Position numbers and translations under genes: made by a program. Below the pieces are notes generated by a model. It saw nothing but the letters and a program-made list of their open reading frames with translations. It searched no databases and had not been told where the DNA came from. A stretch of 64,000 bases of DNA, taken from NCBI GenBank assembly GCA_902595125.1, contig CACJOY010000002.1, positions 124,001-188,000 on the forward strand, written 5' to 3'. Origin of the DNA: an uncultured Pelagibacteraceae bacterium. Its GTDB lineage: Bacteria > Pseudomonadota > Alphaproteobacteria > Pelagibacterales > Pelagibacteraceae. Each line of letters begins with the position of its first letter. Position 1 is the stretch's first letter. Below, in pieces: positions 8,072 to 27,410 of this stretch.

Positions 8072-8099
8072 CTTGAAATAGTAATGCCAATCTCTATAT
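8072..8099 (+). promoter_or_regulatory. Heat-shock (sigma32-type) promoter candidate upstream of groES
   Basis: CTTGAA at 8072-8077, 16 nt, CTATAT at 8094-8099; upstream of groESL. Confidence 0.55.
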
Positions 8100-8125
8100 G
8101 AAGACCATATTAATAAGGAGAATTT

Positions 8126-8416
8126 ATGAAATTTAGACCGTTACACGATAGAGTTTTAATAGAAGTTTTAGACAGTAGCGAAAAAACTGCTGGTGGCATA
8201 ATTATACCAGATACAGCTCAAGAAAAGCCTCAAGAAGGTAAAGTTATTGCAATTGGGGGTGGAGCAAAAACTGAAGATGGAAAAAAAATTCCAATGGATG
8301 TTAAAGTTGGAGACAAAGTTTTATTTGGCAAGTGGTCAGGAACTGAAGTCAAAATTGATGGCAAAGAATACAGCATAATGAAAGAGTCAGACATTATGGG
8401 TATTTCAAGTAAGTAA
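8126..8416 (+). CDS. groES: Co-chaperonin GroES
   Basis: [44 protein letters not shown]. Confidence 0.98.
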
Positions 8417-24447: not shown

Positions 24448-26523
24448 ATGAAAATACCACAACTTAAAAAAAAACCAGAGCTTAAATCTTGTCACAATAC
24501 AACTTGGGAGGATAATTATAGTTGGATACATCAAGAAAATATTCTTGAGGTCTTAAAAGATGGTTCTAAATTATTGCCTGATGTTAGAAAATATCTTGAA
24601 GAGGAAAATAACTATACAGAACATAATTTAAAAAACACAAAAAAATATCAAAAAATTTTGTTTAATGAAATTAAAGGTAGAATTAAATTAGATGATGAGT
24701 CTCTTAAATACAAAGACAAAGAATATGAATACTGGACAAAAACAACTGCAAAAGGAAATTATTCAATAAAACTTAGAAAAAAAATTGGAACGGATAATGT
24801 TGAAGAAATCTGGAATGGAGACAAAGAAAAAGAAAAATTTAATACTGAATATTTCGGTATCGGTGATTTAGAGGTAAGTTACAATGACAAATATTTAGGT
24901 TATTCACTGGATTTAAAAGGATCTGAATATTTTACAATATACATAAGAGATATTTCCACTAAGAAATTTATCACTGAAAAAATAACGGAAACCAGTGGAA
25001 GTATTACTTTCAGTTTAGATGACAAATATATTTTTTACTCAAAACTTGATGAGTTCCATAGACCAAGAAAAATTTTTAGACACAAGATAGGATCGCCCTG
25101 TAAAGATGATGAGCTCATATTTGATGAAAAAAGTGAGGCTTTTACAGTTGGCATTGGTCTGAGTTCTGATGAAAAATATTTTTTCATAACAACTTCAGAT
25201 CACAACACGTCTGAACAATATTATTTTGGAGTAAACGAAGAAAAACCGAAACCAAAATTAATTAAAAAAAGAAAAAAAGGTATAATTTATTCAATAAATT
25301 CATGGAAAAACTATTTTTACTGTCATACCAATGAAAACGCTGAAGATTTTAAGATTGAAAGGTGTTCTGATTTAAGTAGTCAAATTTGGGAAGATTATAT
25401 TTCAGCTAAAAATGAAGTTTTAATTGGTGGACTAGTTTTTTTAGATGACTGGGTGATTAGAGGTGAAAAATCTAACGCTCTTGGAAAATTATTTATAAAA
25501 GATAATCAATCTGGTGTCGAAGAAGAATTAAATTTTACTGATGAAAATGTAATTGCACCTAGTGTTTCATTGATTCAAAGAGACAAAAATACTAATTTAG
25601 TATATTTATCTTATTCCTCTCCTAAAACGCCAAGTAAAACTTATCTTTATAATTTAAAAACAAAAGAAAAAAAACTAATTAAAGAACAAGAGATTCCGTC
25701 TGGTCATGATCCAAATGATTATATTGTTGAAAGATTAGAGTGTCCTTCTCATGATGGAAGATTAATTCCAATTACAATAACTAGACATAAAAAAACAAAA
25801 ATTGATGGTTCTGCAAATTTACTTTTATATGGTTATGGATCATATGGAAATTCAATGACACCTGACTTCTCTTCAACAAAATTTAGTTTAATTGATAGAA
25901 ATATAATTTGGGTAACAGCACACATTAGAGGAGGAATGGAAAGAGGAATGAAATGGTGGAAAGAGGGAAAACTTCTTAATAAAAAAAATACATTTGAAGA
26001 TTATATATACGCAGCAAAGTTTCTAATCGAAAAAAAATATTCATCAAAAGGAAAAATAATAGGCATGGGTGGTTCAGCAGGTGGTTTATTAATGGGGGCA
26101 GTAGTAAATCAATCACCAGATTTATTTCTTGGAGTTGTTATGGCAGTACCATTTGTTGACTCTTTAACAACTAACCTAGATCATTCTTTACCCCTAACTG
26201 TTGGGGAATTTGATGAATTTGGAAATGCAAAAGATAACAAAGATCATTTTGAGTACATCTACTCATATGCGCCATATAATAATATCAAAAAAATGGATTA
26301 CCCTCATATGTTAATTACAACAAGCTTGAGTGATAATAGAGTTTTATTTGATGAGCCAGCAAAATTTACAGCTAAACTTAGAGATTTTAAAACAGATAAT
26401 AACTTGCTTTTACTAAAAACTGAAATGAGTGCGGGGCATGGAGGAAAATCAGGTCGCGACGGTGCAATTGAAGAAATCGCTTTTGACTATGCATTTATAT
26501 TAAAAATTTCTAAAAAAATTTAA
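24448..26523 (+). CDS. ptrB: Oligopeptidase B (S9 prolyl oligopeptidase family)
   Basis: GYGSYG, VTAHIRGG, GMGGSAGGLLMG catalytic Ser, AGHGGKSGR catalytic His. Confidence 0.95.
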   Translation: MKIPQLKKKPELKSCHNTTWEDNYSWIHQENILEVLKDGSKLLPDVRKYLEEENNYTEHNLKNTKKYQKILFNEIKGRIKLDDESLKYKDKEYEYWTKTTAKGNYSIKLRKKIGTDNVEEIWNGDKEKEKFNTEYFGIGDLEVSYNDKYLGYSLDLKGSEYFTIYIRDISTKKFITEKITETSGSITFSLDDKYIFYSKLDEFHRPRKIFRHKIGSPCKDDELIFDEKSEAFTVGIGLSSDEKYFFITTSDHNTSEQYYFGVNEEKPKPKLIKKRKKGIIYSINSWKNYFYCHTNENAEDFKIERCSDLSSQIWEDYISAKNEVLIGGLVFLDDWVIRGEKSNALGKLFIKDNQSGVEEELNFTDENVIAPSVSLIQRDKNTNLVYLSYSSPKTPSKTYLYNLKTKEKKLIKEQEIPSGHDPNDYIVERLECPSHDGRLIPITITRHKKTKIDGSANLLLYGYGSYGNSMTPDFSSTKFSLIDRNIIWVTAHIRGGMERGMKWWKEGKLLNKKNTFEDYIYAAKFLIEKKYSSKGKIIGMGGSAGGLLMGAVVNQSPDLFLGVVMAVPFVDSLTTNLDHSLPLTVGEFDEFGNAKDNKDHFEYIYSYAPYNNIKKMDYPHMLITTSLSDNRVLFDEPAKFTAKLRDFKTDNNLLLLKTEMSAGHGGKSGRDGAIEEIAFDYAFILKISKKI

Positions 26524-26532
26524 ATTTAATAT

Positions 26533-26560
26533 CTTGAAAAAGGTAAATTAATCACCATGT
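26533..26560 (+). promoter_or_regulatory. sigma32-type heat-shock promoter for the Hsp20 gene
   Basis: CTTGAAA (26533-26539), 15 nt, CCATGT (26555-26560), close to CTTGAAA-N11-16-CCATNT. Confidence 0.65.
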
Positions 26561-26567
26561 AAATATC

Positions 26568-26619
26568 GTTAGTTGCCTAATGGGGCTAACAATAAATAAA
26601 CTTGCTTAACAAAGGAGGA
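26568..26619 (+). promoter_or_regulatory. Candidate ROSE-like RNA thermometer in the Hsp20 leader
   Basis: Hairpin 1: GTTAGTT(G)CC-TAAT-GGGGCTAAC (26568-26590). Hairpin 2: CUUGCU (26601-26606) opposite AGGAG (26613-26617) with bulged G26604, masking the SD. Confidence 0.5.
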
Positions 26620-26623
26620 TATT

Positions 26624-27070
26624 ATGACAAGTAAGGATTTATCAATATTTAACTCTCTAAGACCTTTTTCAATTGGTTTTGATGATATGTTTGATCAATT
26701 TGAAAATATGTTAGGAAATGGTTCTTTGACTATGCAGTCAAATTACCCACCTTACAACATTAGAAAAACTGGAAAGGATAAATATGCAATAGAAGTTGCA
26801 TTAGCTGGTTTTAATAAGAAAGATGTTGAAGTTGAGTTTGAGGATAATTTATTAACAGTTAGAACAAAACAAGTTAATAAATTGGACGAAAATAATACTG
26901 ATGGAGAGATTATTCATAAAGGTATATCTCAAAGACAATTTGCAAGATCGTTTACTATTGCTGATGATGTAAAAGTAAATGGGGCAGAACTTAAAGATGG
27001 TCTTTTAACAGTATCTTGTGAAAAAATTATACCTGAGCACAAAAAGAAAAAACTTATTGAAATTAAGTAA
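26624..27070 (+). CDS. Small heat-shock protein, Hsp20/IbpA family
   Basis: Alpha-crystallin domain: YPPYNIRKTGKDKYAIEVALAGF...GISQRQFARSFTIADDV. Confidence 0.95.
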   Translation: MTSKDLSIFNSLRPFSIGFDDMFDQFENMLGNGSLTMQSNYPPYNIRKTGKDKYAIEVALAGFNKKDVEVEFEDNLLTVRTKQVNKLDENNTDGEIIHKGISQRQFARSFTIADDVKVNGAELKDGLLTVSCEKIIPEHKKKKLIEIK

Positions 27071-27081
27071 TTCCAACCTTG

Positions 27082-27106
27082 CTTGTGGGGCATAAATCCC
27101 CACAAG
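27082..27106. terminator. Hairpin between convergent genes, probably bidirectional terminator
   Basis: CTTGTGGGG-CATAAAT-CCCCACAAG, perfect 9-bp stem; only a short T run follows. Confidence 0.6.
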
Positions 27107-27107
27107 T

Positions 27108-27410
27108 TTAAATACATCCACTTGATGTAAAACTCTCTATTATATTTTTTTTATTAATTTCAAATTTTCTTTCACAAGGTATTCCATATTTTTTTGTTTT
27201 ATAAACATATACTTTATTTCCTGACTCATTTACGTAATCCTCTATAGGATTACCTAATTCAATTTTTAAGTCATTCATTTTTTTTCCAACTAATTGCCCA
27301 TATTTTTTATTTTCTTTTTCAGCAATTGAGTCGGATTTATTTTTAATAGTTTGACAGCCTGAAAAAATGAAAAAAATTGATAAAATAATTAATAAATTTT
27401 TAAAATTCAT
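27108..27410 (-). CDS. Small lipoprotein, unknown
   Basis: MNFKNLLIILSIFFIFSGCQ lipoprotein signal; GQLVGKKMNDLKIELGNPIEDY. Confidence 0.65.
   Translation of the reverse strand: MNFKNLLIILSIFFIFSGCQTIKNKSDSIAEKENKKYGQLVGKKMNDLKIELGNPIEDYVNESGNKVYVYKTKKYGIPCERKFEINKKNIIESFTSSGCI

Follow-up and report, generated by a model that had tools for sequence, protein, structure and literature searches.

A conserved two-hairpin, ROSE-like leader and putative RNA thermometer in the hsp20 transcript of a SAR11 bacterium

Because SAR11 bacteria are the most abundant heterotrophs in the ocean and possess few regulators, a cheap RNA sensor of warming in a chaperone gene would bear on how they meet heat. Does the leader of a SAR11 small heat-shock gene hold such a sensor? 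The window analysed here is a stretch of 64,000 nt from a 1.18-Mb Pelagibacteraceae (SAR11) genome. Its hsp20 gene (26624–27070, forward strand) encodes a 148-residue small heat-shock protein of the alpha-crystallin family (Pfam PF00011, E 1.1e-17) that is 40% identical to E. coli IbpA. A prolyl oligopeptidase gene precedes it, and a lipoprotein gene on the opposite strand and a permease gene follow. Downstream of the coding region, at 27082–27109 on the forward strand, the sequence reads as a likely intrinsic terminator (CTTGTGGGG / CCCCACAAG, then TTT). Terminator-like hairpins were also found after hsp20 at loci L155 and L166.

The preliminary description of this locus had proposed a σ32-like promoter at 26533–26560 on the forward strand, and this assignment holds. 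It consists of CTTGAAA (26533–26539), a 15-nt spacer and CCATGT (26555–26560). The pattern CTTGAAA-N11-17-CYATRT occurs twice in the window, against 0.29 occurrences expected, with the second match lying upstream of groES. All but two of 151 SAR11 hsp20 leaders (149) retain TTGAAW, and the genome encodes rpoH (TIGR02392, 357.7 bits). Judged by its sequence, hsp20 therefore has both marks of a σ32 regulon member, namely a promoter of the form CTTGAAA–spacer–CCATNT and, in the same genome, rpoH. Transcription would start near 26567, which would place the first of the two hairpins described below at the extreme 5′ end of the transcript. Dual heat control of hsp20, transcriptional and translational, is plausible because the promoter is conserved and rpoH is present. 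The groES locus (window positions 8072–8404) has a similar σ32 promoter, CTTGAAA-N-CTATAT at 8072–8099, and a short leader without a ROSE motif.

The presumed thermosensor, hairpin II, occupies 26601–26617 of the forward strand. The leader reads CTTGCT (26601–26606), TAACAA (26607–26612) and AGGAG (26613–26617), followed by the start codon at 26624. The proposed pairing of CUUGCU with AGGAG around a bulged G26604 was borne out base by base: C26601 pairs with G26617, U26602 with A26616, U26603 with G26615 as a wobble, C26605 with G26614 and U26606 with A26613. An additional pair, U26607–A26612, closes an AACA tetraloop, so that the full stem can be written as CUUGCU(U) with (A)AGGAG. The Shine–Dalgarno (SD) sequence AGGAGG (26613–26618, forward strand) lies inside this hairpin and is predicted to be sequestered.

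The arrangement is highly conserved. UYGCU with (A/T)GGAG is found in all 151 aligned SAR11 hsp20 leaders. Among the 102 distinct leaders used for counting the core, every one has UUGCU (UCGCU in genus g6) with AGGAG, or UGGAG in a single case; the U-to-C change falls at the only position where the ROSE class permits it. The two strands stay constant while the loop between them varies from 5 to 10 nt, and leaders that lack the top U–A pair mostly acquire a C–G or U·G pair at the base of the hairpin. G26604 and its equivalents, presumably bulged, are invariant in SAR11 leaders. Because of the variable loop, hairpin II is misplaced in the MAFFT alignments A1 and A2 where loop length changes; one alignment restricted to sequences of equal loop length (A3) and another fitted to the model (A4) were used instead. 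No covariation was detected in hairpin II among 73 leaders: four of its six pairs are constant and one varies on one side only. Conservation of the SD sequence would on its own fix one strand of the hairpin. The core motif by itself is not rare, since the 1.18-Mb genome contains 15 copies of TYGCTN{3,10}AGGAG and 10 of a reversed control pattern. Of the 15 copies, a single one is followed by a start codon that opens a reading frame of at least 60 aa, and it belongs to hsp20; together with the conservation, this led us to reject a chance origin of the motif.

Hairpin I occupies 26568–26590 of the forward strand, beginning about 8 nt 3′ of the promoter, and agrees with the second bulged-G hairpin proposed earlier. 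It comprises a lower stem of 5 bp, two U·G pairs, the bulged G26575, two C–G pairs and a UAAU loop (GUUAGUU-G-CC UAAU GGGGCUAAC). Its stems are exchanged among SAR11 leaders with pairing kept (GUUAG/CUAAC, GUAAG/CUUAC, UAAGG/CCUUU and others), around a constant part in which U/C-U/C-G-C-C/U stands opposite GGG or GG, one G being extra. In 73 distinct leaders, aligned by fitting to a covariance model, six of the nine pairs have changed on both sides. Standard pairs fill 98.2% of the pair cells, and 59 cells are double-changed, compared with 14.6 ± 3.1 after shuffling. The covariation score of 0.264 exceeds the shuffled value of 0.145 ± 0.007, is reached in none of 500 shuffles and falls to at most 0.083 when the pairing partners are slid. 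A MAFFT alignment of 31 leaders, independent of the model fit, agrees with this result. Hairpin I undergoes real compensatory change. Its predicted ΔG37 is −7.0, with ΔG reaching zero at about 66 °C, and it thus supplies the stable hairpin 5′ of the thermosensor that ROSE leaders contain; the Rfam ROSE_3 model includes a homologous hairpin.

The Rfam search suggested in the preliminary description gave a mixed answer. The best match in the 400-base leader region is indeed a ROSE family, ROSE_3, at 26567–26629 (22.2 bits, E 0.02), and the alignment is full-length (model positions 1–69), matches the order of the two hairpins and keeps both bulged G residues in register. The score of 22.2 bits lies below the gathering cut-off of 43 bits, and membership of RF02523 cannot be claimed from it. 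The ROSE_2 (RF01832) and ROSE (RF00435) models have no match up to E 10 in 26400–26800. ROSE_3 scores are similarly modest elsewhere, with 28.3 bits for SAR11 leader L002 and 28.6 and 34.5 bits for two other alphaproteobacterial leaders; over whole SAR11 genomes, none of 97 in the order rises above the cut-off and matches are weak and scattered. The fast-filtered genome scan with ROSE_3 misses even the window's own leader, and a model built from SAR11 leaders was substituted for it. The validated ROSE element of E. coli ibpA scores 100.4 bits with ROSE_2 and only 20.8 bits with ROSE_3, so a sub-threshold score is what would be expected of a distant true relative. The gene is a PF00011 member and its leader is conserved within the order, as befits the leader of a small heat-shock gene. 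We class the element as ROSE-like, rather than as an accepted RF02523 member, because its score lies under the gathering cut-off. Given that Rfam scans miss the SAR11 element, the number of ROSE elements in AT-rich marine genomes is probably underestimated.

The substituted covariance model (R1), made from 31 SAR11 leaders only, has a single match in the window's genome, at 76.7 bits, and this is the hsp20 leader. Of 297 genomes in the order, 257 have matches at E up to 1, and the best among those listed sit at hsp20 starts. Outside the order, each of the six best alphaproteobacterial matches (E 2e-7 to 1e-4) lies in front of an Hsp20 gene; class-wide matches weaker than E 5e-4 are mixed and were given no weight. 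Matches in the sister family f2 are weak. This family (L029, L030, L156–L165) has a different Hsp20, about 40% identical, and a leader (UUUAAUC-G-CU UAAGG AGGAUUAAA) with a UCGCU/AGGA core, a longer stem and further hairpins upstream. An Rfam search of the f2 leaders found no ROSE element.

The leader architecture extends to viruses. Marine viral contigs carry hsp20 genes up to 64% identical to that of the window, and 494 phage records, mostly of cyanophages, contain an hsp20 match. In a set of 51 non-redundant phage leaders (including two UNVERIFIED records resembling host DNA), UYGCU-N-AGGA is present in 43, a bulged-G hairpin I in 43 and both in 36; the corresponding frequencies in composition-shuffled phage leaders are 0.3%, 1.8% and 0%. 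The two-hairpin leaders come from L363–L370 and L372–L381 (phage records) and L295–L360 (IMG/VR). Their hairpin I stems (GACAA/UUGUC, GAGAA/UUCUC, AGUGGUU/GACCACU) are unlike those of SAR11, with the bulged G in the same place. Fourteen phage leaders have a late-type promoter, TATAAAT, no more than 75 nt away. When eight complete phage genomes (54–197 kb) were searched with the SAR11 model, the hsp20 leader was the top match in each, and the only other matches at E up to 1 had E values of 0.34 and 0.41. These genomes include the Pelagibacter phages Mosig EXVC030M, HTVC008M and HTVC103P and the cyanophages S-CRM01, P-SSM4, S-CAM1 and S-H9-2. The UUGCU/AGGA core, which the preliminary description expected to recur in related leaders, is kept, with U(U/C)GCU variation, in all SAR11 hsp20 leaders examined, and it recurs in leaders of other Alphaproteobacteria and of phages. 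With the compensatory changes of hairpin I, this leaves the reading as a ROSE-like thermometer well supported.

We consider it rather probable that ROSE-type leaders form part of phage equipment, by which T4-like phages would adjust chaperone production to the temperature of the water while they infect. The carriers would be T4-like phages infecting SAR11, marine cyanobacteria and Methylophilales, with the same two bulged-G hairpins and in some cases with an adjoining TATAAATA late-type promoter, and the SAR11 element would belong to a thermosensor-plus-chaperone module common to host and virus. Such leaders would place temperature sensing among the regulatory tools of marine viruses. A search of open-access papers returned none linking phage small heat-shock genes with RNA thermometers. 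Several phage records show further features. A glutamine (glnA-type) riboswitch of 64.1 bits lies just 3′ of phage hsp20 at L321 (1106–1156) and L326 (1108–1158). Record L371 (OQ572409.1, UNVERIFIED Pseudomonas phage Y7) contains a Pseudomonas ibpA-like gene with a σ32 promoter and a full ROSE_3 element (69.2 bits), and is probably host DNA in a phage record. In L382 (UNVERIFIED Campylobacter phage A11a), the leader core resembles that of E. coli ibpA.

How stable would the thermosensor be? The energies given here are nearest-neighbour estimates, of which only the comparison between leaders is meaningful. Hairpin II of the window, taken in isolation, has a predicted ΔG of −2.8 kcal/mol at 20 °C, which shrinks to −0.6 at 37 °C and reaches zero at about 42 °C. 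The median zero point of 101 SAR11 leaders is likewise 42 °C. Deleting G26604 is predicted to change the value at 37 °C to −4.4, and the substitution U26603C to −3.5. In these calculations, the bulged G is decisive for the marginal energy of hairpin II, and so weak a hairpin would suit a sensor tuned to cooler water. When the transcript is folded as far as the AUG, the SD sequence is predicted to be 82–90% paired at 5–37 °C, with a mean unpaired probability of 0.10–0.18. Predicted folds extended to +45 are inconsistent from leader to leader, and whole-leader melting curves were dropped because predictions beyond codon 5 differ too much among homologues. The predicted working temperature is lower than those of the E. 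coli and Pseudomonas elements, so that comparing them offers a test of thermal tuning in RNA thermometers.

Taken together, the sequence, its conservation, the covariation of hairpin I, the promoter and the calculated energies make it very probable that the hsp20 transcript starts at a σ32 promoter and carries a two-hairpin, ROSE-like RNA thermometer that controls translation, with melting in the cell and translational control being what we infer from them. Hairpin I, at the 5′ end, would be stable and stay folded across the working range. Hairpin II would pair U(U/C)GCU with the SD sequence around the bulged G and keep ribosomes off at normal sea temperatures; warming would weaken this marginal hairpin, expose the SD sequence and raise Hsp20 translation alongside σ32-driven transcription. 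In addition, the Hsp20 protein may bind and repress its own leader, as IbpA does in E. coli.

This last step, taken further, yields a distinct explanation: the leader could be mainly an Hsp20 binding site for self-repression, temperature acting indirectly as the protein is drawn to aggregates. In E. coli, IbpA binds the 5′ UTR of its own mRNA and thereby represses translation, an activity that requires R93 and Y34 (PMC10474464). The equivalents in the window protein are R104 and Y41, and the SAR11 Hsp20 proteins examined retain the residue corresponding to R93. However, R93 is widespread in alpha- and gammaproteobacterial Hsp20 proteins and hence weak evidence, and in E. coli autoregulation works together with the thermometer, not in its place. 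Self-repression as the main role of the leader is possible, though we would bet against it.

A second alternative arises from the coding sequence. Codons 2–4 (ACA AGT AAG, 26627–26635, forward strand) are invariant at the nucleotide level, and within them AAGUAAG (26629–26635) is complementary to CUUGCUU (26601–26607), the anti-SD strand of hairpin II. In 128 distinct SAR11 hsp20 coding sequences, they are the sole invariant codons among 116 conserved degenerate ones. Codon 4 is AAG in all 126 coding sequences that keep the lysine, whereas 76% of the lysine codons of the gene are AAA. General conservation of first codons was rejected as the explanation, as groES and the neighbouring permease gene, used as controls, vary and display no comparable invariance. 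When codons 2–5 are added to the folded transcript, the predicted best fold pairs CUUGCUU with AAGUAAG instead of forming hairpin II, leaving the SD sequence in a 21-nt loop at all temperatures. The invariance of these codons in 128 coding sequences is the reason why we do not dismiss this pairing as a folding artefact.

The leader might accordingly be bistable, the anti-SD strand switching between the SD sequence (hairpin II, the first to form as the RNA is transcribed) and codons 3–4; the latter pairing would either latch the SD sequence open after heating or enclose it with the AUG in a larger loop. In line with this, the codon 3–4 helix is predicted to be stabler than hairpin II (−7.1 versus −2.8 kcal/mol at 20 °C) and to be the main fold of the leader in the window. 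In most homologues, however, predictions do not favour this helix; CUUGCUA leaders lack a compensating ACA-to-ACT change, and the complement to the anti-SD strand is absent from genera g6 and g10. Among 48 synonymous variants, the wild-type codons have no consistent predicted effect on SD accessibility, and the notion that they raise it was discarded for want of a consistent direction. A bistable switch is thus unlikely, and the predicted folds do not account for the invariance of codons 2–4, which raises the question of whether coding sequence is part of the ROSE switch. The last alternative, in which a DNA-level operator or ordinary initiation signals explain the conservation and the hairpins have no regulatory role, would fit the sequence-invariant SD and UYGCU strands and the lack of compensatory change in hairpin II, but is highly improbable, and as a pure DNA operator is rejected, because hairpin I stems are replaced wholesale in SAR11 and phages with pairing and the place of the bulged G kept, and because the arrangement recurs in phages under a different, T4-late-type promoter.

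How does the thermometer reading compare with known systems? The translational switch of lambda cIII uses alternative structures that involve coding sequence, as the SAR11 leader would if the codon pairing is real; it is non-homologous and lacks the U(U/C)GCU motif. Rhizobial ROSE1 (RF00435) shares the class-defining pairing of UYGCU with the SD sequence, its G being unpaired or non-canonically paired, but has three or four hairpins, and its model does not match the SAR11 leader. E. coli ibpA (RF01832, ROSE_2) shares the gene family, the U(C)GCU/AGGA core with a bulged G and σ32 control; its leader is larger and its thermosensor hairpin much stronger (ΔG37 −4.1, ΔG zero at 68 °C). The closest likeness is to Pseudomonas ibpA (RF02523, ROSE_3), which also has a small heat-shock leader of about 60 nt, a σ32 promoter and two hairpins, with the bulged G of hairpin I before C-C/G-G and that of hairpin II within U(U/C)GCU opposite the SD sequence. 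In this proven two-hairpin ROSE element, hairpin II melts and hairpin I does not, and stabilising deletions, including that of the bulged G, abolish induction (PMC3669281). The Pseudomonas leader, represented by L371, scores 69.2 bits with ROSE_3, compared with 22–28 bits, under the cut-off, for SAR11, and hairpin II is weaker in SAR11 (ΔG37 −0.6 versus −3.8 kcal/mol, ΔG zero at 42 versus 60 °C). Unlike Pseudomonas ibpA, SAR11 has in addition invariant codons complementary to the anti-SD strand. The ROSE-like kind of thermometer is already known; what this locus adds to it are first codons that are invariant at the nucleotide level and a device that is widespread among marine phages.
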